A DNA stretch of 42,182 nt. It comes from a virus. Below are positions 16,004 through 34,599 of the stretch, piece after piece; positions within the stretch are counted from its first letter, which is position 1, and the number at the start of each line of letters is the position of its first letter. The stretch covers positions 1-42,182 of IMG/VR virus record IMGVR_UViG_3300046557_000504; one strand, given 5' to 3'. The notes under the pieces were generated by a model. That model had not been told where the DNA came from and searched no databases. It worked only from the letters and a program-made list of their open reading frames with translations. Made by a program: the position numbers and the translations under genes.

Positions 16004-16480
16004 CTATTTGAGCGGCCAGAACCAGACCTCGGTGGACCACCAGTAGCAGTCCTCCTCGCACGCCAGCTGGTTGATCGTGTCGGGCGCCACCAGGTCGATA
16101 TGGCCCTGGCGGTCGGTCGCGCCCCACAGGTGGTAGAAGCTGATCACGCCGCGCCTGCCGTCGATCCCCTGCGCGGCCGCCGGGCCGCCGGGGTACTTTT
16201 CCGGCGCGCCCCACGCGCGCACCAGGAAGCGCGCCACGTTGGCCTGTCCCGGTTCCAGGACCAGGCCCTTGCATTCGCCGGCGGCCACCCGCAGCCGCGC
16301 CGGCATGATGTGCACGCCGCACCGCACCAGCGCCAGGCTCATCCGGATCCCGCAGGTGTTTTCCCAGCCCGGCGTCGTGTACAGGGCCGCATGCCCGATC
16401 CAGCGATACAGTTCCTCGGTCGTCACCGACCTCCGGTCCGGGTACTTGCTGCGCAACAGCGCGTACGGCGGCTTATGCAT
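16004..16480 (-). CDS. tae4: T6SS amidase effector Tae4
   Basis: The product has 158 residues starting at the ATG at 16480, 8 bases inside the immunity gene. The Tae4 signature is clear: active-site Cys C43 in WENTCGIRMSLALVRCG, catalytic His H127 in RQGHIDLVAPD, and the C-x3-C pair C141/C145 (LACEEDCYWW) that forms a regulatory disulphide in known Tae4 enzymes. Family function: cleavage of the gamma-D-Glu-mDAP bond of peptidoglycan stem peptides in the periplasm of rival Gram-negative cells. No signal peptide is present, as expected for Hcp/T6SS delivery. An upstream in-frame extension to 16585 exists but looks non-native. Confidence 0.88.
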   Translation of the reverse strand: MHKPPYALLRSKYPDRRSVTTEELYRWIGHAALYTTPGWENTCGIRMSLALVRCGVHIMPARLRVAAGECKGLVLEPGQANVARFLVRAWGAPEKYPGGPAAAQGIDGRRGVISFYHLWGATDRQGHIDLVAPDTINQLACEEDCYWWSTEVWFWPLK

Positions 16481-16841
16481 GGCAGCACCCGCTGCCCGCG
16501 CACGGCCAGGCATGGCGCCAAGCCGCGAGCGCGATCGCGCCAGCGCTGCCAGCGGCCAGCGCCGGGGGCGCCGTTTCGATAGCATCGGTGACGGCCGCCT
16601 GCAGCGCCGCGCTGCTGGGCCGGGTGCGGCTGTAGCACCAGTCGCGGTCGGCCGTGGCGTCGACCACGCCCTGCAGGTAGGACACCGCCTGCGCCGCCTC
16701 GGCCGGGCTGCGCAGCTGGTGCAGCAGCTGGGCGCCGGTGCGCCACGGCGGCGCGGGCGGGGCGGGCGGGGCGGCGGACACCGGCAGCGTCAGGGCCAGC
16801 AGCAGGGCCGGCAGCAGGGCCGGCAGCAGCGGCGCGCCCAT
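16473..16841 (-). CDS. Rap1a/Tai-type periplasmic immunity protein for Tae4
   Basis: The product has 122 residues; its start shares the adenine of the hcp stop (TGATG). A signal peptide (LLPALLPALLLALTLPVSA) precedes a helical Rap1a-like domain: GAQLLHQLRSPAEAAQAVSY, LQGVVDATADRDWCYS, and AALAAWRHAWPC-like end (ALAAWRHAWPC), with the two conserved Cys. Tai4/Rap1a proteins sit in the periplasm and plug the Tae4 active site. A location between hcp and tae4, coupled on both sides, supports the pairing. The first Cys of the canonical family (after GxxLL) is absent here (HQL), so it is a divergent member. Confidence 0.78.
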   Translation of the reverse strand: MGAPLLPALLPALLLALTLPVSAAPPAPPAPPWRTGAQLLHQLRSPAEAAQAVSYLQGVVDATADRDWCYSRTRPSSAALQAAVTDAIETAPPALAAGSAGAIALAAWRHAWPCAGSGCCHA

Positions 16842-17329
16842 CAGGCCACCCGGTTGGTGGCCAGGTCCCAGCCGCCGGCCGTGTTGCCGCCGGCGCCGCC
16901 CACGATCCGCTGCTGGGTGTACTTCCACTTAATTTTTGAGAACTTCAGGCCGACGCCGTCGACCATCCCGCCCGCCGCCACGCCTTGCGCCACATGGCCG
17001 ATCAGCACGTTCTCGAGCTCGACCTCGTAGTACTTCACCCGCTCGCCATTGCCGTCCGCCCGGAAGAACTCGAACCTGGCCTTCGGCATCGTCTTGCCCA
17101 TGGCGCAGTACTGGGCCAGCAGCGGCGAGGCCAGGTCGCAGATCTTGTTGAAACTGACGTCCGACAGCTCGGCGCGCTCGGCAGTGTGGCCGCCCGCCGT
17201 CGACGCGGTCGCGCTCTTGGGCTGCCGGATCGACCAGCTGACCGACTCGCACTCGATCCAGCCCTGGTGCGCGCTGTCGGCCGACTCGCCCTTGATGCCG
17301 TCGATTTGCAGGTATGCGTCGATTGCCAT
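16841..17329 (-). CDS. hcp: Hcp-family T6SS tube protein
   Basis: The product has 162 residues, with a perfect AGGAGG ribosome site 5 bases before the ATG at 17329. N-terminal MAIDAYLQIDGIKGESADSA and the blocks GWIECESVSWSIRQP, AELSDVSFNKICDLASPLL, KARFEFFRADG and VKYYEVELENVLI are characteristic of the Hcp1 family. Hcp hexamers form the T6SS inner tube and chaperone small effectors in their lumen, so Hcp followed by an effector/immunity pair is a functional unit. No other T6SS gene (VgrG, TssB/C, ClpV) is in the window, so it must use a host apparatus. The fold is shared with phage tail tubes, but the phage has its own tube gene at 3108. Confidence 0.9.
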   Translation of the reverse strand: MAIDAYLQIDGIKGESADSAHQGWIECESVSWSIRQPKSATASTAGGHTAERAELSDVSFNKICDLASPLLAQYCAMGKTMPKARFEFFRADGNGERVKYYEVELENVLIGHVAQGVAAGGMVDGVGLKFSKIKWKYTQQRIVGGAGGNTAGGWDLATNRVA

Positions 17330-21487: not shown

Positions 21488-22392
21488 CACACACCTCCTT
21501 CGCTTGCAGCAGCCTCGGGTGCAGCGGTAGATGCCTTGACCAGTTGGCCGGTCAACTCATGGTAGCGCTGCAGGAACATCCGCTTGGCCAGCGCCGGCGA
21601 CATCGGGAAGATCCGGGTCGACAGCGGCTCGACCCCGGCGCTGACGACCAGCGCTGCCGGCGCCGCCTGCAGGTCGCGCCGCTCGGTGGCCAGCAGCACC
21701 TGGTCGGCGCGCTTGACCGACGCCGGCAGGGTGGCCGGCAGGCCGAAGCGTGCGAACACCTCCGCCTCGACCCGGCGCTCGATCACCGCATAGTCCGGCA
21801 GCAGCCGCTTGAGCGGCTTCGGGACGTCCTTCAGGAACGCCTCGGCCGCGTCGTGCAGCAGGCCCGCCAGTGCGTCCGCAGGCGGCACGATCTGGCTCAC
21901 CAGCAGCGAGTGCTGGGCGACCGAGTAGAAATGCTGCACGTGGCCACCGAAGCGGCACTCGTTGGCCAGGGCATGGGCGATGTCCTCGATGTCGAACACG
22001 CACTTTTCCGGCGCCGCGAAGCTGAAGAAGTGGCCGGACTTCGTCAGGATCGCGTGCTCGTACTGCTCGCTGGCCAGCACAGTGAGCGCGTCCGGCGCCA
22101 GCTGCGCGACGATGCCCGAGCACAGGTCGGGGTGCGACTGGGCGGCAGCGATGGCCACCTCGCCGAGGCCCGCGAGCGCCTGCTCGTCGTAGCTGGCCGG
22201 GGTGGTCCGGCCGATGGGTTGCATGATTTGCATGGCAGGTTCTCCGGTTGGTTCGCTGATGGTCGCTGCCACCTGGTCGAGATGGGCCAGCACCGCGCGG
22301 CGGTACTGGCCCAGGGTCTGGTGCTCGGCGGCGTGCCCGTCGTTCTCGACCAGGCTGCGCACCGACCCGAGTGCCGCTTGAGCGTTAGCCAT
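21487..22392 (-). CDS. HD-domain phosphohydrolase (YfbR/5'-nucleotidase-like)
   Basis: The product has 301 residues. The HD core is in the second half: [20 protein letters not shown] with QHSLLVSQ supplying an upstream His, and [20 protein letters not shown] giving the H-D pair and later acidic residues. This spacing is that of phage HD hydrolases related to YfbR, which act on deoxynucleoside monophosphates. The N-terminal about 90 residues are helical and unassigned. It follows the PRTRC genes in one operon; a nucleotide-metabolism role during early lytic growth is the likely one. Confidence 0.75.
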
Positions 22393-23114
22393 TACGCCAC
22401 CTCGCGCAAGGCGTGCTGGGCCGGGGCGGCCGGCGGGCGCGTGGTCTCGTTGAAGCTACCCATGTCGAGGCCGTGCAGCAGGTAGTCGCGGAACGCCTCG
22501 AGCCCGCCGTCCTGGATCTCGTACATCACCGCCCGGTAGAACAGGTCGGTGTGGCGCGGCGGTACCTCGAGCACGAACAGGCGCCGGTCGGTCTCGAGCA
22601 CGGGAAGGAATTCGGTCGAGGTCGACAGGAACACGAAATTCATGCGGTTGTCGATGGTGCGGTCGCGCCTGCCCTTGGTGGTGATCGGCACCGACACGGC
22701 GCTGATCAGGCTTTTCAGGCGCGTGGCGTTCTTCTTCGAGAACGTGCCGTCCACCACCACCAGGCCGGCGCCATCGGCCCAGCGGGTGAACACGTCGTGC
22801 AGCTGCCTGGCATTGATCACGCGCGCGCTGTCGTCGCGGTACAGGCCGGCAGCCACATGGTGGAAGAACACGCTCTTGCCGGTGCCGCCTTCGCCGTTGA
22901 CCACGATCCCCATCGCCATCTTGGCGCCCGGATTGCGCAGCGGGTAGGCCAGCCAGCACATCACCCAGTGGCAGGCCGCCTCGTCGTAATCGCACAGGTG
23001 CAGCAGCAAGGTCTGGATGTTGTGGAAGCTGACCGGCCGGTGGTGGTCGCGGCCGAGGAAGGCGCTGGCGATGGTGGCGCGCAGCAGCCGGAGGTTGCGA
23101 AGCAGTCGTTTCAT
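22392..23114 (-). CDS. P-loop ATPase, SF3-helicase/DUF5906-like
   Basis: The product has 240 residues from the ATG at 23114 (AGGAG in front). Walker A is GEGGTGKS at residues 74-81 ([20 protein letters not shown]). Walker B-like is [13 protein letters not shown], and a sensor-like NFVFLSTS follows. These blocks match DUF5906/primase C-terminal SF3-type ATPases. It is much shorter than usual primase-helicases and lacks a primase domain. The phage has a full primase-helicase at 31852, so this is either an accessory helicase or a partner of the PRTRC genes, with which it is adjacent and co-directional. Confidence 0.7.
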
Positions 23115-23142
23115 GGGAATCTCCTGGGTTTGGCGAAAGGCG

Positions 23143-23952
23143 TCACGCGGCAGCGCACACCCGCTCGTTGTCATCGGTGGAATTGGCGGCCGTGTCCGGC
23201 TGGGGCGGCGGTTCGCGCACGAGCAGCGGCCGCATGCTGCCCGTCTTCAGGTTGACGAAGGCGCCGTGCCAGGTCAGCTGCCCGTGGCGGAAGAACTCCC
23301 ACAGGATGGCCAGCGCCGGCGTCACGATCGACTGGTTGACGAACAATTCCTGGCGCTCGAGCGCCTCGGCCAGGCCGCAGCTCGGCGTGTCGTCCTCGGG
23401 CGCGCGCAGGTCGACCAGCTCCGGCAGGACCGTGTACGGGCTCGGGAGCCTGACGCTGCCGGCCGGCGCGACCAGCTGGCGGATATCATCGTCGAGCCCG
23501 AGCTCGCCGAAGATTACCTGGCCGTCGGCCGCGCGGTTGCCCAGGTCCATCAGGTAACGGGCCCGCTGGCGGCCCAGGTGGTGCGCAATCTCGTAGCGTG
23601 CACGCGCGCTGTCCACGCACGCGATCGCGATTTTTGGGCAGTGGCCGTCCTCTTCATAGCGGCCATAGAACGCCTCCCAGTTCAGCCCGAAGAAGGCGTT
23701 GATGCGGTTGACCAGGACGTGCGCCTTGCTCGAGCCGACGTCGAAACTGCCGAACAGCTGGCGGCCCATGTTGGCCTCGCTGACCGTGTCGGGGTCGTAC
23801 ACGCGCACTTCCAGGCCGGGGTGCCCGAGCGCCGTGATCGCGTGGTTCAGGCGCGCGAGGCCGGTCAGCATCTGCGAGCCGTTGCCGCCGCAGCCGATCA
23901 GCGCGATCTCGACGGGCCGCTGCAGCAGTGAGGGAGGAGTGATATGTGGCAT
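23143..23952 (-). CDS. PRTRC system ThiF-family protein (E1-like)
   Basis: The product has 269 residues. The Rossmann nucleotide-binding start is IALIGCGGNGSQ (G20, G22, G25). The E1 acidic/Arg block is VYDPDTVSEANMGRQLF (D53, D55, N61, R64, Q65). CVDSARARYEIAHHL follows, and C192 in TPSCGLAEALERQELFVNQ is the candidate catalytic cysteine. In E1-like enzymes these residues adenylate the C-terminus of a ubiquitin-like protein and then take it as a thioester. It follows PRTRC A by 7 bases. The order A then ThiF is the standard end of PRTRC cassettes. Confidence 0.9.
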   Translation of the reverse strand: MPHITPPSLLQRPVEIALIGCGGNGSQMLTGLARLNHAITALGHPGLEVRVYDPDTVSEANMGRQLFGSFDVGSSKAHVLVNRINAFFGLNWEAFYGRYEEDGHCPKIAIACVDSARARYEIAHHLGRQRARYLMDLGNRAADGQVIFGELGLDDDIRQLVAPAGSVRLPSPYTVLPELVDLRAPEDDTPSCGLAEALERQELFVNQSIVTPALAILWEFFRHGQLTWHGAFVNLKTGSMRPLLVREPPPQPDTAANSTDDNERVCAAA

Positions 23953-23959
23953 CGCCCGC

Positions 23960-24715
23960 TCACCCGAAGATCTTCTCGGCCGGCACGTTGATCGGGATGT
24001 ACAGCCCGAGCACGCACAGGCGGAACGCCACCGTCGGTACCGGCTGGTCGAGGTTGCCAAAGACACCGGCGATCTTGACGCTGCCGGCATCGTCGCGGTT
24101 ATCGGTGTCGCTGAAGAACGCCGGCAGCTGGCCATGGCTGTGCAGGTCGAAGGCGTACGACAACGGGCCATCGACCCTGAGCGCCGGCAGTTCGTAGCGT
24201 AGCGATGAAGGCGTGCTGTCCTGTACCGTGACCGACACGTAGATCAGTTCCTTCAGTTCGGCGTCCCACGCCAGCGCGCAGGCCGTCTCGTTGGGCGCCT
24301 CTGCTCGGGCATGCTCGGCAAATTTGCGGAACAGGTCGAGTGCGTCGCCGAGGCGGCCGAACGCCAGGTCGGTGCGCGGTTCAATGTGCCCGTATGGCAT
24401 GGCGACCGCGTTTTGCTCGGCCAGCCGGCGGATGACATGCAGCCACGGCCGCCGCACCTCGAGGTACAGGCCATCGTCCGCCAGCAGGAAGCGGTGGCCG
24501 CTGTCCTGCAGCGGGAAGAACTCGCTGTGGCGCGGTACCGCCGCGACCGGTGCGGCGGCAAACTGGGCCAGGTCCAGCTGCAGCTTGTCCGGATCGATGT
24601 TTTCCTCGTCGAGCGCGATCGGCATCGGCCGCTGGGTGCGCAGGGCGGCGTCGGTGGCGGCGACGAACTGCTCGAACGCTGCACGCTGCAGCTCCAGCAG
24701 TTGGTCGAATTTCAT
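23960..24715 (-). CDS. PRTRC system protein A (JAMM/JAB peptidase-like)
   Basis: The product has 251 residues from the ATG at 24715 with AGGAG 6 bases upstream; an earlier ATG at 24736 lacks one. A complete JAMM motif is present: H192-S-H194, seven residues, S202-x-x-D205 (DLHSHGQLPAFFSDTDNRDD). That motif is the zinc site of MPN+ deubiquitinases. The C-terminal VPTVAFRLCVLGLYIPINVP is typical of PRTRC A. Expected role: removal or maturation of a ubiquitin-like protein. The intact motif suggests an active enzyme. Confidence 0.87.
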   Translation of the reverse strand: MKFDQLLELQRAAFEQFVAATDAALRTQRPMPIALDEENIDPDKLQLDLAQFAAAPVAAVPRHSEFFPLQDSGHRFLLADDGLYLEVRRPWLHVIRRLAEQNAVAMPYGHIEPRTDLAFGRLGDALDLFRKFAEHARAEAPNETACALAWDAELKELIYVSVTVQDSTPSSLRYELPALRVDGPLSYAFDLHSHGQLPAFFSDTDNRDDAGSVKIAGVFGNLDQPVPTVAFRLCVLGLYIPINVPAEKIFG

Positions 24716-24748
24716 GGTGATCTCCTGGCCGTTCATATGGATCCTTTG

Positions 24749-25492
24749 TTAGCGTTGTTTTTGGGATGCCGCCGCGATCCGCGCGATCGCTGCCTGCAGG
24801 GTTTCATCGGACGTGACCAAAGCGCGGCGCGTCGCCTCCGGGTTGGGGTGCGCGAGCTGGTCGCGCCAAAGCTGTTTCATGCCGCCCTTGTACTTGACCG
24901 CCTTCTTCCGGTTGGGGTGGGTGAAGTGGCTGCGGAAGAACGCCTCCTCGTAGCGGGTGATGGCAGCTGCGTCGACCGCCGCCGGCAGATCGACATTGCC
25001 GGTGCAGATGCGGCCGCCATCCCACACGTTGAAATGGGGCGAGTGGCACAGGCGGGTGCCCGGCGCCGGCCGCTCGTCCTTGCGCAGCGCGAACACGTAC
25101 CAGTCGTCCGGCACGGCGACGAACACCAGTGGCGGATGCGCCGCCGCGCCGTGGCCGGTCAGTAAGGCTGGGTCGTTCGATTTGAACCAGGTGGTGCGGA
25201 TGGCTGCCGGCGTCCACCAGGCGATCAGGTTGGGCGACGTGTACAGCAGGTTGGCCGGCAGGAAGCCCGAAAACGCGGTGGCCGTGCTGACCGCCTGGGC
25301 GAACGCGGCCAAGCCGGTTTTCGTCAGCGGCACGCCGGCGCCGATGATCTTGCGGTGCGGCTGGTCGGCGTCGAGGTTGATCGGGTGGGTCGTCGCGTAG
25401 ACATGGCCGTCTCTGGACTGGTACAGCAACAGCGCGCTGACCAGGTCAAGCGTGGTTTCGCCGGCGCTGAGGATGTTGACGAGATGCGTCAT
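24749..25492 (-). CDS. PRTRC system protein B (prokaryotic E2-like)
   Basis: The product has 247 residues. The E2-like C-terminal core contains LCHSPHFNVWDGGRICTGN with candidate catalytic C163, the W-x-x-G-x-x-C-x-G pattern of the Prok-E2_D family, which PRTRC B belongs to. Upstream, PLVFVAVPDDWYVFALRKDE forms the beta sheet. Start overlaps the stop of protein F by ATGA. In the cassette it is expected to accept a ubiquitin-like protein from the ThiF protein. E2-type chemistry in this subfamily is predicted, not proven. Confidence 0.87.
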   Translation of the reverse strand: MTHLVNILSAGETTLDLVSALLLYQSRDGHVYATTHPINLDADQPHRKIIGAGVPLTKTGLAAFAQAVSTATAFSGFLPANLLYTSPNLIAWWTPAAIRTTWFKSNDPALLTGHGAAAHPPLVFVAVPDDWYVFALRKDERPAPGTRLCHSPHFNVWDGGRICTGNVDLPAAVDAAAITRYEEAFFRSHFTHPNRKKAVKYKGGMKQLWRDQLAHPNPEATRRALVTSDETLQAAIARIAAASQKQR

Positions 25493-26556
25493 ATGGGGTC
25501 TCCGATGAGTAGCACCAGCTTTTCGGTCAGGACGGCGAGCTGCATCATCTGGCGGGTCTTTAGCTGGAAGTCGCGCACGCCCTCGGCCGTCATCGGGACC
25601 GGGTTGGCATCGATGAACTCGGAGTACTCCCCACTTTCACCGAACATGTTGAGCGCCTCGTCGATGACCTGGCCGATGGCGTCGTTTTCCTTCCAGAGCA
25701 ATACCATCGACCCATCCACTGAATCGAGGCCGCAGCGGTGCACGCCCTTGTCTTCCGAGCGCAAGACGAAGTCGGGGCGGTTGACCAGTTCGGCGATGGC
25801 ATCGCAAGCGGCGACCACGCTTTTCCCAAATCCCTCGCGCGCAGCGCGCACAATTTGCTCTCTCGACGCGACTCGTTCGGGGCGGGTCACCCAGCGGGGC
25901 ATGTCTGCATAGAAGGCGGCGCGCGTGATCACAACGTCGTTGTCGAGCACTTCCTGCACCGTCGCGTAGCCGTTCATGTTGCGGTGATTCTCGAGCAGCT
26001 CCTCGTCCGTTTCCGAGTCATCCCAGTGCAGCCATTGCACCAGGTCTTGCGCCAGCCAGGGGTTGAGCGAATCGGGCAGCAGCAGCGTCGCGTCGTACAG
26101 GACCGCCAGCACCGTTTGCCCGAAGCCTTCCAGCACCGCCTCGAGCTGCTCGGTGCGCCGCGCCAGCGAGAAGCGGGGTATAAGGCCCCCCCGCGAGTAG
26201 CGCGTGAAGCAGAACCAGGCCGTGGTCGCGTCGTCGTAGTTGTGACCGGTGCCGATCAGCTGCTGAACGTGCAGATGCCAGCGGAAAAACGCGCACGAAT
26301 GCCGCTTGATCAGGCCTGCCCACCAGCGCGACAGCGCCACCATCGACATTTCGCGCTCGTCCGGCTCGCCCAGCACCTCGACCAGCGTGGCATTCGGGCC
26401 CGGCCTGAGCATGGCGTCGGTGATCACGCCGGCCTCGAGCAACGCGATCGCCAATGGCACGGCGAGCGCGTTTTCGCCCGGGATGTGCAGCTCGAGCGGG
26501 ATCGATGGCGCCAGGTGCGGCAGCGCCATGGCGCCCAGTTGCGGATAGCCGATCAT
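25489..26556 (-). CDS. PRTRC system protein F
   Basis: The product has 355 residues, with LGAMALPHLAPSIPLELHIP near the N-terminus and SRWWAGLIKRHSCAFFRWHL in the middle, both as in PRTRC F. It is mainly helical, with no recognised catalytic motif. Its function is unknown; the constant linkage to B suggests a partner or substrate-recruiting role. It starts inside the stop of the small upstream gene (ATGA) and ends inside the start of B, so all three are translationally coupled. Confidence 0.8.
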   Translation of the reverse strand: MIGYPQLGAMALPHLAPSIPLELHIPGENALAVPLAIALLEAGVITDAMLRPGPNATLVEVLGEPDEREMSMVALSRWWAGLIKRHSCAFFRWHLHVQQLIGTGHNYDDATTAWFCFTRYSRGGLIPRFSLARRTEQLEAVLEGFGQTVLAVLYDATLLLPDSLNPWLAQDLVQWLHWDDSETDEELLENHRNMNGYATVQEVLDNDVVITRAAFYADMPRWVTRPERVASREQIVRAAREGFGKSVVAACDAIAELVNRPDFVLRSEDKGVHRCGLDSVDGSMVLLWKENDAIGQVIDEALNMFGESGEYSEFIDANPVPMTAEGVRDFQLKTRQMMQLAVLTEKLVLLIGDPI

Positions 26557-26753
26557 GGCAGCACCAGGTGGTTGACGGACGGCGCCAGGCAGCGCGCGGC
26601 GGTAGCGGCCCGGTTGGCTGCGACGATACGCGCCACGGCGAGCGCGACCGGGTCCCTGGCCTGCTCGCTGGTGACGGCGGTCCGCGAGCGCGCGCTGGTC
26701 GACAGCGTGCCCGTGGTGCGCAGGCGCTGCAGGGCGGTTTCACGGGTCAGCAT
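26553..26753 (-). CDS. small protein between PRTRC C and F
   Basis: The product has 66 residues from the ATG at 26753, one base after the stop of protein C (TGACATG). MLTRETALQRLRTTGTLSTS followed by an Ala-rich helix (DPVALAVARIVAANRAATAA). The first 20 residues look like a short amphipathic helix. A TTG at 26762 is an alternative start. No family was recognised. Tight coupling on both sides indicates a real gene of the cassette. Confidence 0.5.
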   Translation of the reverse strand: MLTRETALQRLRTTGTLSTSARSRTAVTSEQARDPVALAVARIVAANRAATAARCLAPSVNHLVLP

Positions 26754-26754
26754 G

Positions 26755-27258
26755 TCAGGCAACCTGCGCTTCGCAGTACTCGTGGTGCAGCTCGGCCAGG
26801 CGCTCGCGGGAGGCTGCGGAAACAGCGCACGGGCCGACGTCGCGCAGCGCCTCGTCCACGTCCTTGACGAACTGGGCGTCGCCCGCCAGCAGCCAGTTCG
26901 CCCCGAGCGTGGCCACCAGGTCGCCGGCCAGCTTTGGCAGCTCGGCGTCGGATGGCGCCGGCGTCGTCATCAACGCGACGAAGCGACGGTTGCCGAGCTC
27001 CGGCGCCAGGCAGAAGGCGGAGCCACTCACGAAGACGTAGTTGGCAAAGCGCGCGCCGCCCTTGGTGCCGACCGCCCGGCGGAAGGTGTACACGACCTTG
27101 GCGCCCAGCTGCTCGGGGCCCTCGATGTCGGCGCTGACGATCTCGGGGTACACGTTGGCGTAGAAGTCGCGCACCTGGGTCAGCGTGAAGCCGCTGTTCG
27201 GGTCGGCCAGCACCACGCCGTTGTAGCGGAACTCGCGTGTCAGTTGGTTGATGTCCAT
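26755..27258 (-). CDS. PRTRC system protein C (ubiquitin-like) with C-terminal extension
   Basis: The product has 167 residues with GGAG before the ATG at 27258. Residues 1-67 match PRTRC C, the Prok_Ub beta-grasp family: REFRYNGVVLADP, TLTQVRDFYANVYPEIVSAD, IEGPEQLGAKVVYTFRRAVG, ending T-K-G67-G68. Typical members are about 70 residues and end near G-T-K-G. Here about 99 more residues follow the Gly pair (ARFANYVFVSGSAFCLAPEL onward, helical at the end). The extension could be a separate domain, or a peptide removed by the JAMM protein to expose a Gly C-terminus. The first part is family knowledge; processing is inferred. Confidence 0.82.
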   Translation of the reverse strand: MDINQLTREFRYNGVVLADPNSGFTLTQVRDFYANVYPEIVSADIEGPEQLGAKVVYTFRRAVGTKGGARFANYVFVSGSAFCLAPELGNRRFVALMTTPAPSDAELPKLAGDLVATLGANWLLAGDAQFVKDVDEALRDVGPCAVSAASRERLAELHHEYCEAQVA

Positions 27259-27269
27259 GGTGGCTCCGG

Positions 27270-28043
27270 TCAGAAAAGATCGAGGGCGAAGGCATCGCCG
27301 GCGGCTTCGGTGGCGCCCGGCACGGGTTCGCCAGCCGGCGCGCTGGCCGCGGTCTCGTCAGCGGCTGCGGCAGGTGCAGCGATTGGCTGCAGCGCGACCG
27401 CTGCCTCGGGCGATTCAGGCGCCTGCGTGGCGCCCGGCTCGTTGCTGGCCGTCCCTTCGGCGAATTGGGCATCGCCTGGCGCCGCCATGGCGTCAGTTCC
27501 GGCGTCAGTTCCGGCGTCGGGCGCGGCCTGTGCGGTGCCGAGCACGGCCGTGTCGTTGGCTTGCGGCAGCGCGACATCCGGCGCATTGGCCATCAGGGCG
27601 CCATCGGTCAGTGCGGCGCCAGCAACGGCCGCGGTGTCGTCGGTGGCAGCAGCTTCGCCGGGCGCGGCTGCAACCGCGGCGGCGGCGGTATCGGCGGCGG
27701 CACTGCGGGTCGCTGCCTTGGCTGCTGGCTTCTTCTGGCTTGGCGCCCGGGCCTTCGCACCGCCCGAGGTGGCGCCGGTCTCCTTGTCGTCATCGGTGGC
27801 CGCGTCGCGGGCCTGGTCGAGCAGCGAACGCTTGGGCGCCTGCCAGATGGCGGCCGCCTCGGCGAAGTCGGCGTCGAGCTCCTCGGGGCTGCCCACCAGC
27901 GACAGCGGGCGCAGCTCGTGCGCCTTGGTCTTGTCGTTGGTCTGGACCGGCGTGATGTTCACGCGCAGCAGCTCGGGGCCTTCGGCGGTGATCACGATCA
28001 TCAGCGTCGCACGTTGGGCGAGCGCGTGAAGAGGTTTGAACAT
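27270..28043 (-). CDS. PRTRC system protein E
   Basis: The product has 257 residues; AAGGGAG stands 5 bases before the ATG. The conserved part is N-terminal: MFKPLHALAQRATLMIVITA, LLRVNITPVQ, LRPLSLVGSPEELDADFAEA, as in PRTRC E. From about residue 85 to the end the protein is a long Ala/Asp/Pro/Thr-rich, probably disordered tail (many GAP-, AAD- and ATD-like steps). Function is unknown. It is the first PRTRC gene in the operon. Confidence 0.78.
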   Translation of the reverse strand: MFKPLHALAQRATLMIVITAEGPELLRVNITPVQTNDKTKAHELRPLSLVGSPEELDADFAEAAAIWQAPKRSLLDQARDAATDDDKETGATSGGAKARAPSQKKPAAKAATRSAAADTAAAAVAAAPGEAAATDDTAAVAGAALTDGALMANAPDVALPQANDTAVLGTAQAAPDAGTDAGTDAMAAPGDAQFAEGTASNEPGATQAPESPEAAVALQPIAAPAAAADETAASAPAGEPVPGATEAAGDAFALDLF

Positions 28044-31638: not shown

Positions 31639-31865
31639 CGGCAACCCACCTCGCTGACACCTGTTCCCCGGAATGGCAGCTGGCCTGCCTCGCGCGGCAT
31701 ATTTGCCGGATGCCGGGGAAGGCTGACCGGCACCGGTTCCTCGACCTGATGCGCAAGCACCATCGCCCCGAGTTCATCGCGACAGTAGAACAGAAGGTGC
31801 GCGACGAGTGGGTGTTGACGCACCCGCCCGCCAACGCGCCCCGGGAGGCACATGGCAACCCTTGA
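31635..31865 (+). CDS. small phage protein (DUF7696-like)
   Basis: The product has 76 residues with a GTG start at 31635 after GGGGAGG (31623-31629). CSPEWQLACLARHICRMPGK, DRHRFLDLMRKHHRPEFIAT and VEQKVRDEW match the pattern of small DUF7696-like proteins placed just before primase-helicase genes. It overlaps the primase by 14 bases. Function unknown; a replication accessory role would fit. Confidence 0.55.
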   Translation: MTATHLADTCSPEWQLACLARHICRMPGKADRHRFLDLMRKHHRPEFIATVEQKVRDEWVLTHPPANAPREAHGNP

Positions 31866-34599
31866 CCAGGTCTTGCAACAGATGCGGGATGAGGACATGC
31901 CGGACCTGCCGGCAGGGCATCCTGAACGAGATGGAAAGATCCACCGTTTCGGGCCGAAGAAGAAGGCCTGGTACAAGCTGCAGGAGTTCGCGCTCAATTC
32001 CGGCGAGATCATGATCACCGGTTCCTTCGGCATCTGGCACGGGGCGGAGCCCAACACGATCCGCGTCCAGATGGACTGGAAGGGCGTTAGCGCCGAAGAG
32101 AGAACCGCCGCCGAGGCCAAGCGCCAGGACGAGGAGCGCAAGGCGGCCGAACGGGACGCCCGCAAGGCCGCCGCCGCGGCGCGGCGCGCGCACTTCCAAT
32201 GGGGCGCGGCAGCGCGCGAGGGCAGCTCGGCCTATATCGAGCGCAAGAAGATCAGCGCCCCGGCCGTACGTTTCGGCGCGGACGGCGTGGTCCTGATACC
32301 CGCAGTCGTGTTCGGCGAGGCCGGCCCGCAGCTGGTCGGCCTTCAGAAGATCGCGCCAGACGGCGAGAAACGGTTCAACACCGGCATGGCCAAGCAGGGC
32401 GCATGCTGCCCGATCGGCAAGGTCGGCGCCGACGACGCGCTGTTGTTCCTTGGCGAAGGGTATGCGACCGCGCGCTCGGTCAGCATGGCGACCGACGGCG
32501 CCATCGGCGGTTATGTCGCCTTCGATGCCGGCAACCTGATTCACGTTGCCCGGATGGCGCGCGCGCGCCATCCGGACACGCATATCCTTTTCTGCGCCGA
32601 CGACGACTACCAGCTCGAGCGGCGCCTGCACGACTGGCTGCTCGACAAGTACAAGGTTGCCGACGTGGTCCCTGTGGACGGCGCCGAGCGCACGCTGAAA
32701 GCAGCCGACGGTATGCCGGTGCGCGTGACCGCGTCGTGGTGCAAGGATAGCGGGGGCGTACCCTACGTCCTGGCCGAAGTGCGCAGCGGCCGCCGCATTG
32801 CCACGCGCAAATTCGAGAACGCCGGCATCGCCAGCGCCACTGCAGCTGCCGTCGCCGTCGGCAATGCCTCAGTGACGTGGCCGCGGTTTGCGGACCGGGG
32901 CGACAACAAGTGGACCGACTTCAACGATCTGCACTGCGAGGAATCGCTGGACCAGTGCCGCGAGCAGCTGGCCGCCGCGATCCTGCGCGCGCTGCAGCCC
33001 GCGCCTGAACCTGCTGCCGGCGGCGATACTGATCCGGTGATCGCCGCGCATGCGGACGACCCCCTGTACGACGCTGCGGTCAAGGTCGTATGCGCGGAGT
33101 CCCGGGTGTCGATCTCGCTGGTGCAGCGGCACCTGAAGGTCGGCTATAACCGGGCGGCGCGCCTGGTCGAGCGCATGGAACTGAACGGCCTGGTGTCGCC
33201 CATGGGGCCATCGGGCGAGCGCCAGCTGCTCAAGCCAGCTGGCAACGTGGTCGACCTGCAGCAGCGAAAGCGAAAGCGCGCCGCCGCGGCGCCCGCTGCC
33301 GCTGGGGGCGCGGAGGAAGCACCGCCGGCGTGGGCTGGCAACGGCGACGGCCAGCCCGCTGGCGCCGATCACCTCAGGTGGGAAGATGGGCTCGCGCGCA
33401 GCGACAAGGGCGGGATCCTGCCCTCGCTGGCCAATGTGTTCCTCATTCTCAGCAACCACAAGGACTGGTCGGGCGTGCTCGCGTACGACGAATTCAGCGG
33501 CCAGGTGGTCAAGCTGAAGGCACCGCCCTTCGCCGGAGGCAAGGCCGGCGAGTACTCCGATATGGACGATCTGCGCTGCACGCTCTGGATGCAGCAGAAG
33601 TACGGCTTCCAGCCGCGCAAGGAAGTGGTGATGGACGCCGTGCTACTGATCGCGGACCTGAACATGTACCACGTGGTGCGTGGCTACCTCGACCCACTGG
33701 TGTGGGACGAGGTGCCGCGGCTTGACCACTGGCTGGTCAGCTACCTGGGCGCCGAGGACACGCCGTACGTGCGCGCAGTGGCGCGGAAGTGGCTGATCTC
33801 GGCAGTGGCCCGGATCTACAAGCCGGGCTGCAAGGCCGACAACGTGCTCATCCTGGAAGGCGAGCAGGGCCTGTACAAGTCGACGGCCCTGAAAGTGCTG
33901 GGGGGCGACTGGTTCACCGACGCGCCGTTCAAGCTGGGCGACAAGGATGCCTATGCGGTCATCCGGGGCAAGTGGATCATCGAGCTGGCCGAGCTGGACA
34001 GCTTCAACAAGGCCGAGTCAACCGGCGCGAAGCTGTTCTTCGGCCAGTACATCGACCGCTACCGCAACTTCTACGGCAAGCGCGCGAGCGACGTGCCGCG
34101 CCAGCAGGTGTTCGCCGGCACCACCAACAGCGACGCCTACCTGAAGGACGACACCGGCAACCGCCGTTACTGGCCGGTACGCGCCGTCCAGATCGACCTC
34201 GAAGGGCTGAAACAGGCGCGCGACCAGATCTGGGCAGAAGCGGTGCACCGGTTCCGGGCCGGCGAGGAATGGTGGCCGACAGCGCCGGAACGCGCGATGT
34301 TCGAAGAAGAGCAGGACGCGCGCTACGTGGGCGACGAGTACATCCGCCTGATCAAGGAATATTTGATCGGAAAAAGCCAGACCACGATGGCGGACATCCT
34401 CGGCAACGCGCTCAAGCTGGACGTGGCGAAGTGGTCCAGGCCCGAGCAGCAGCGCGTGGGCCGCTGCATGTCCGAGATCGGGTGGAAGCGCAAGAGGGAC
34501 ACGAAGGTTGGAGTCGACGGCAAGCGCGACTGGCTTTACCAGCGGCCAGAAACCAGTGGCGCCGCGCCAGCCAATGGAGACGCAGATGGTCCGCTCTGA
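31852..34599 (+). CDS. TOPRIM primase / FtsK-gamma / VapE-type helicase fusion
   Basis: The product has 915 residues. N-terminal primase part with a TOPRIM fold: E202 in FLGEGYATARS and D250-D252 in ILFCADDDYQ. A winged-helix domain at about residues 403-460 (DPLYDAAVKVVCAESRVSIS, VQRHLKVGYNRAARLVERME) is a clear FtsK gamma domain. A linker rich in Ala/Lys/Arg follows, then a VapE-like SF3 ATPase from about residue 580 to 800 with Walker A at residues 669-678 (EGEQGLYKST), IIELAELDSF as Walker B-like region and TGNRRYWPVR near the end. It is the main replication protein. The gamma domain reads polar octamers in FtsK; here it may direct the protein to an origin or to the 8-bp repeats right after the gene. 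Confidence 0.88.
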   Translation: MATLDQVLQQMRDEDMPDLPAGHPERDGKIHRFGPKKKAWYKLQEFALNSGEIMITGSFGIWHGAEPNTIRVQMDWKGVSAEERTAAEAKRQDEERKAAERDARKAAAAARRAHFQWGAAAREGSSAYIERKKISAPAVRFGADGVVLIPAVVFGEAGPQLVGLQKIAPDGEKRFNTGMAKQGACCPIGKVGADDALLFLGEGYATARSVSMATDGAIGGYVAFDAGNLIHVARMARARHPDTHILFCADDDYQLERRLHDWLLDKYKVADVVPVDGAERTLKAADGMPVRVTASWCKDSGGVPYVLAEVRSGRRIATRKFENAGIASATAAAVAVGNASVTWPRFADRGDNKWTDFNDLHCEESLDQCREQLAAAILRALQPAPEPAAGGDTDPVIAAHADDPLYDAAVKVVCAESRVSISLVQRHLKVGYNRAARLVERMELNGLVSPMGPSGERQLLKPAGNVVDLQQRKRKRAAAAPAAAGGAEEAPPAWAGNGDGQPAGADHLRWEDGLARSDKGGILPSLANVFLILSNHKDWSGVLAYDEFSGQVVKLKAPPFAGGKAGEYSDMDDLRCTLWMQQKYGFQPRKEVVMDAVLLIADLNMYHVVRGYLDPLVWDEVPRLDHWLVSYLGAEDTPYVRAVARKWLISAVARIYKPGCKADNVLILEGEQGLYKSTALKVLGGDWFTDAPFKLGDKDAYAVIRGKWIIELAELDSFNKAESTGAKLFFGQYIDRYRNFYGKRASDVPRQQVFAGTTNSDAYLKDDTGNRRYWPVRAVQIDLEGLKQARDQIWAEAVHRFRAGEEWWPTAPERAMFEEEQDARYVGDEYIRLIKEYLIGKSQTTMADILGNALKLDVAKWSRPEQQRVGRCMSEIGWKRKRDTKVGVDGKRDWLYQRPETSGAAPANGDADGPL

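Follow-up and report, generated by a model that had tools for sequence, protein, structure and literature searches.

The window, meaning the whole stretch of 42,182 nucleotides analysed here, derives from a virus record with lambda-type terminase and portal genes and an integrase gene. Its minus strand carries a run of PRTRC genes in the order E, C, a 66-codon ORF, F, B, A and ThiF, ending at position 23143, in which we annotated the following features:

27270..28043, minus strand: PRTRC E (TIGR03741, 1e-16)
26755..27258, minus strand: PRTRC C gene with an ATG start, 167 aa, a ubiquitin-like (Ubl) domain followed by an extension, tail B (ORF and profile matches)
27058..27258, minus strand: Ubl domain, residues 1-67, ending GTKG67, with a predicted JAMM cut after residue 67 (TIGR03738 over residues 3-67; AF2 model)
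26950..27057, minus strand: low-confidence linker, residues 68-103, which most tail B relatives have in shorter form (AF2)
26758..26952, minus strand: tail B helical core, residues 103-167, with predicted helices at 107-118, 125-140 and 148-163 (AF2 and alignment)
26553..26753, minus strand: small ORF, tail A, 66 aa, ending ...CLAPSVNHLVLP, which starts beside the C stop and overlaps the F start by 4 nt
25489..26556, minus strand: PRTRC F, alpha-helical (TIGR03742, 1.5e-21)
24749..25492, minus strand: PRTRC B, E2-like (Prok-E2_D; profile matches, Cys conserved)
23960..24736, minus strand: PRTRC A, JAMM peptidase (profile matches; Glu, HxH, Ser and Asp all conserved)
23143..23952, minus strand: PRTRC ThiF, E1-like (TIGR03736, 2e-91; GxGGxG and a Cys conserved)

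Adjacent Ubl, JAB, E1, E2 and alpha-helical proteins between 23143 and 28043 on the minus strand make this a class 6d operon. Iyer, Burroughs and Aravind (2006), in the passages of PMC1779556 on this class, describe a Ubl, a JAB with an N-terminal domain, an E1-like protein, an E2-like protein with a Cys and a later His, and an alpha-helical protein; the window operon shares all these components (PRTRC proteins, TIGR03735-03742), for which a ubiquitin-like pathway has been predicted since that work. The Ubls described in those passages are small standalone proteins with a C-terminal Gly, whereas the window has a tailed Ubl and a small ORF between C and F. Among the relatives compared, the Glu, HxH, Ser and Asp of PRTRC A were present in 102/102, the E2 Cys of PRTRC B was kept in 110/110 and the ThiF Cys in 104/104. 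The ParB-related member was absent, with no TIGR03734 match in the 42-kb record, which may be a fragment; given this absence, the window holds the conjugation part and not the full cassette. A profile search for PRTRC D returned no match, and its controls gave no signal either. Elsewhere on the phage, a type VI secretion set occupies 16004-17329 on the minus strand, comprising Hcp (PF05638, 9e-38), a Tae4 amidase (PF14113, 2e-13) and a Rap1a-type immunity protein (PF18602, 2e-10). A primase/helicase-like protein adjoins ThiF (22392-23174, minus strand; DUF5906, 8e-12; PHROG DNA primase, 1.5e-18), and a VapE-like protein lies at 31852-34599.

The N-terminal part of PRTRC C matched TIGR03738 PRTRC_C over residues 3-67 (E 5e-28, 97 bits against a cut-off of 45.95) and Pfam Prok_Ub over residues 3-65 (4e-24, 84.6 bits against a cut-off of 25). 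AF2 predicted a beta-grasp for this part (pLDDT 81-88 over residues 11-60), and the predicted model matched ubiquitin structures over residues 5-67 at modest Z values of about 5. As the sequence-only reading had it, the Ubl part of the 167-residue ORF ends RRAVGTKG67-G68 and is followed by 99 residues. Ending at the conserved Gly is usual for standalone PRTRC C proteins, although the domain-type model does not require it; window C continues for 100 residues beyond G67.

To place this extension, we assembled 113 distinct C proteins from scans of virus contigs, species genomes, plasmids and genome samples. Identical Ubl-plus-tail copies were dropped, as were L001 and L115-L129, which are short copies of loci otherwise included; the sets were found by similarity to the window Ubl or picked from match lists, so that the counts are no census. 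Of the 113 proteins, 51 carry tail B, 27 have tail A fused to the Ubl and 2 bear other tails; the remaining 33 stop 0-5 residues past the Gly. Tailed proteins made up 69/80 of those from virus records, 4/15 from plasmids and 1/12 from genome-scan loci, as well as 6/6 from the genome_contigs set, which may include prophages. That last scan gave eight loci with the Ubl as query and no match with the E2 as query. In a family-profile sample, matches came from 12/399 genomes in the order to which the Duganella genome belongs and from 5/398 in its phylum, with four genomes common to both sets. The view of the window protein as an unusual member is not supported, since most virus-borne homologues are extended. 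The accompanying expectation, that usual members are near 70 residues and end at GTKG, describes plasmid and chromosomal proteins well (22 of the 27 distinct plasmid or genome-scan proteins have five residues or fewer after the Gly) and fails for the virus records.

Tails A and B join the Ubl at the same point. Residue 67 is Gly in 80/80 tailed proteins, and the last four Ubl residues are GTKG in 78/80, with GRKG and GAKG once each. Residue 68 varies freely (A 25, N 13, G 12, T 9, C 7, S 5, L 5, others 4). We thus rejected a cut after the Gly pair, with G68 in only 12/80 proteins against G67 in all, and by this comparison the Gly-Gly pair of window C is incidental. Among the 33 short proteins, 21 end exactly at the Gly position (one of them, L133, with Ala replacing the terminal Gly) and 12 carry 1-5 residues more, as matured and near-matured Ubls would.

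The last ~64 residues of window C belong to a family common to other phage C proteins, as captured by a tail B profile. Since this family is shared and its dN/dS is about 0.27 (16 pairs), the extension is not a product of chance. The tail B versions of the window-type and Burkholderia-type phage groups are weakly related, and the window linker is an insert relative to ten tail B relatives. In the AF2 model the core forms three helices (pLDDT 76-88 over most of the core) folded apart from the Ubl. The earlier reading had set the precursor idea against the case of a single extension, present in most homologues and packed on the Ubl. Most virus homologues are indeed extended, but their tails differ in kind and the model lacks such packing, the linker at 64-99 being of low confidence (pLDDT <50 for residues 64-77 and 79-99; pTM 0.38). 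A flexible C-terminus is common among Ubls and does not prove processing.

Searches of the tails against Pfam, NCBIfam, PHROGs (for tail B and the window tail A) and PDB sequences gave no convincing known family, and the viral library gave no match to the tail under 0.001. Pizza-repeat PDB matches were read as repeat noise, as no stretch passed alone, and a structural match of the tail to SCIN-like three-helix bundles in the PDB (Z 5.7) lies within chance for helical bundles. Separately, a match to PF09327, a phage tail tip family, came up for six tail B proteins (L079, L080, L082, L083 and similar; best 7e-4). It seems to stem from an insert bearing the pattern DGRTYVAGI, as though the insert had been traded with a tail gene.

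In the window, C carries tail B while tail A is a separate ORF at 26553-26753. Tail A was found in 109/113 operons (27 Ubl fusions and 82 separate ORFs), a tally made by reading the locus table; a stricter pattern missed L002, L058, L061, L082 and L149, in which the ORF is present, and took L026, which the tally rejects. The four operons with no accepted tail A (L025, L026, L130, L151) all lack a JAMM. Two of the later loci (L167-L174) differ from this pairing, with a Methylomonas locus (L172) that has a JAMM and no tail A found, and a Vibrio locus (L171) that has tail A and no JAMM motif. In close phage relatives the same ~66 residues are either fused to the Ubl or encoded as a separate ORF with a start that overlaps the C stop or lies almost against it, the spacing often being -4 to +10 nt, and tail A ends near the F start wherever F was recognised. 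Its conserved part is the C-terminus. The dN/dS of tail A is about 0.37 when separate (28 pairs, single pairs up to 0.73) and 0.40 when fused (16 pairs). Readthrough of the C stop codon, suggested by plasmid tblastn matches running past it, was rejected, as tail A is mostly in another frame and has its own start.

Phage and plasmid tail A are likely homologous, judging from two sequence comparisons. Profile scores were collectively above those of 3009 other small ORFs (p 1.6e-8), with 5/22 passing the 1% line singly, and the C-terminal pattern, which was written after seeing the 22, fits 20/22 against 100/3009. This small ORF between C and F is mostly unannotated. Across 11 plasmid stretches with a separate tail A, the gene tables leave it unlisted in nine (L023, L024, L131-L133, L135, L137-L139) and list it in two (Azospira, Vibrio), the plasmid table being self-declared incomplete. 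The annotated F start can fall within the tail A ORF (Aromatoleum; L131), and in the published phage BgVeeders33 tail A is listed as a hypothetical protein adjoining a tailed C. Polaromonas plasmid 1 (L173) has a PRTRC C gene with a fused tail that is missing from its gene table.

We then mapped the tails on a tree built by a quick method from 103 rows of B plus A proteins. Four tail states required 15 changes, fused tail A alone 8 (at least 5 on well-supported branches) and the contrast of tailed and short 9; the meeting of several long branches makes deep placements uncertain. Joining, loss or exchange of tails always occurred at G67. Swapping, fusing and dropping of tails at exactly this residue in related viruses and plasmids suggests that the operon's own protease trims the Ubl to its functional form.

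The distribution of the protease points the same way. Wherever the A gene of a tailed operon could be read, it has an HxH-S-D JAMM motif (76/76). Residues beyond the Gly were found in 88/106 operons with a JAMM against 0/9 without (Fisher 7e-7, ignoring kinship). This count leaves out L005, L020, L062, L078 and L100, cut by contig ends, as well as the Polaromonas locus L173, in which the tail is fused and the operon otherwise unrecognised, and sets L133 to present. The nine JAMM-less cases are mainly Pseudomonas and Deinococcus; in the five checked, no JAMM was found anywhere on the replicon or in the genome, and L169, L170, L171 and L174 were judged from the locus stretch alone. Since JAMM presence changes only four times on the tree and an ancestry-controlled test retains one supported pair, the contrast has little independent weight, and it is consistent evidence rather than a passed test. 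The Ubl has no residues to be removed in 18/106 JAMM operons, which implies a further role for A. Loci of the Pseudomonas type (L025, L130, L151, L170, L174) and of Deinococcus (L026, L169) have a Ubl and an E2, mostly with ThiF, and we found no PRTRC A and no clear tail A ORF in them.

Ubl precursors of this general form have counterparts. In eukaryotic ubiquitin-ribosomal protein fusions, a Ubl is joined at its terminal Gly to a small protein that a DUB releases. Window C likewise joins a Ubl to a small protein at Gly; neither tail A nor tail B matches a ribosomal family, and their release would be by analogy. PADLOC matched none of the eight window proteins tested to a described anti-phage defence system: no model matched C, B or A, seven of the eight had no convincing match, and ThiF matched only generic E1-E2 models. 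The Bil system is antiphage and its BilA has two Ubl domains, whereas window C has one Ubl followed by a tail and its operon sits in a phage. In Bil (BilA Ubl, BilB E2, BilC JAMM, BilD E1), the JAMM BilC cuts BilA and exposes the C-terminal Gly of the Ubl, according to a review (PMC11354881), which is a precedent for the proposed cut of C; with BilA maturation already known, the mechanism itself would be of an established type. Closer to phages, the class passages of PMC1779556 describe lambda-type TAPI/TAPK with JAB, in which a phage Ubl is followed by a Gly and then another domain, and propose that the JAB cuts at the Gly. Those proteins belong to tail assembly and are presented there as a JAB paired with a Ubl alone, unlike the window operon. 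The literature searches made gave no record of this tail system, the passages of PMC13373217 on the subject hold nothing on precursors, and a PRTRC literature search returned no paper with the function of PRTRC/6d operons in its title. What appears to be new is the interchangeability of the tails, together with the small ORF as a component that the operons share.

Taken together, we favour, as the probable reading, that window C is the Ubl of a phage-borne E1/E2/Ubl/JAMM operon and is made as a precursor that PRTRC A cuts after G67. The idea of a JAMM-cut precursor came from the sequence-only reading, which put the cut after the Gly pair; we move it to G67 and retain the precursor idea, on strong circumstantial grounds: the invariant G67, unrelated tails joined there, repeated loss and gain of tails, the flexible modelled junction, and a JAMM in every readable tailed operon with no extension where it is lacking. 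A cut after G67 explains a kept Gly with a free next residue, unrelated tails at one point, and tails coming and going beside intact enzymes. PRTRC A would cut C after G67 and expose a C-terminal Gly, which ThiF would adenylate before passing the Ubl to the Cys of PRTRC B; PRTRC B would attach it to targets, from which A may also strip it. The released tail would be a separate product, the small helical domain tail B in the window and tail A in many relatives. As guesses, tail A might act through its conserved C-terminal end (P...VLP) by docking on another operon protein, and tail B might hold the precursor stable or inactive until the cut. The purifying selection on the tails indicates that they are not throw-away peptides, and they might work while still attached.

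This last point leads to the main rival, unlikely in our view but to be taken seriously, in which C remains an uncleaved two-domain protein, with the tail staying on to serve in binding or targeting and G67 conserved because folding, or recognition by E1 or JAMM, requires it. Tail B was met only behind a Ubl (9/9 virus-contig matches of the tail alone were contigs already counted as fusions), the tails are selected (dN/dS 0.27-0.40), and a fusion is simple Rosetta-stone evidence of partnership. Yet an uncleaved protein fits poorly with an invariant Gly followed by a free residue and with the many relatives that end at the Gly in the same operon setting. E1/E2 chemistry also requires a free C-terminal Gly on the Ubl, and the E1 and E2 active sites are intact. 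The tight spacing of C and tail A, together with remnants of the tail A start region in some fused junctions, would suit another account, in which fusion is a side effect of tight packing: the C stop and the next start were lost, and the result is meaningless and tolerated as C needs no free end. We consider this improbable, as the junction is GTKG in all but two of the 80 tailed proteins, the Ubl has a dN/dS of about 0.11, and the JAMM, E1 and E2 residues are intact in these phages.

Extending the precursor reading to the family is more speculative, and we offer it with some reserve. In 6d operons of phages and plasmids, the Ubl may be a removable N-terminal partner, which a cut at G67 by the operon's JAMM would leave mature while releasing a second functional protein, and tail A may be an overlooked core gene, fused in some lineages and kept as its own ORF in others. 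If true, one translation product would yield both proteins, as in ubiquitin-ribosomal fusions. Tailed precursors offer a direct readout of the step, namely the mass of C when A is present or absent, and the operon gains a further component in the small ORF that lies between C and F. Phages that carry a whole Ubl conjugation kit raise the question of what gets tagged.
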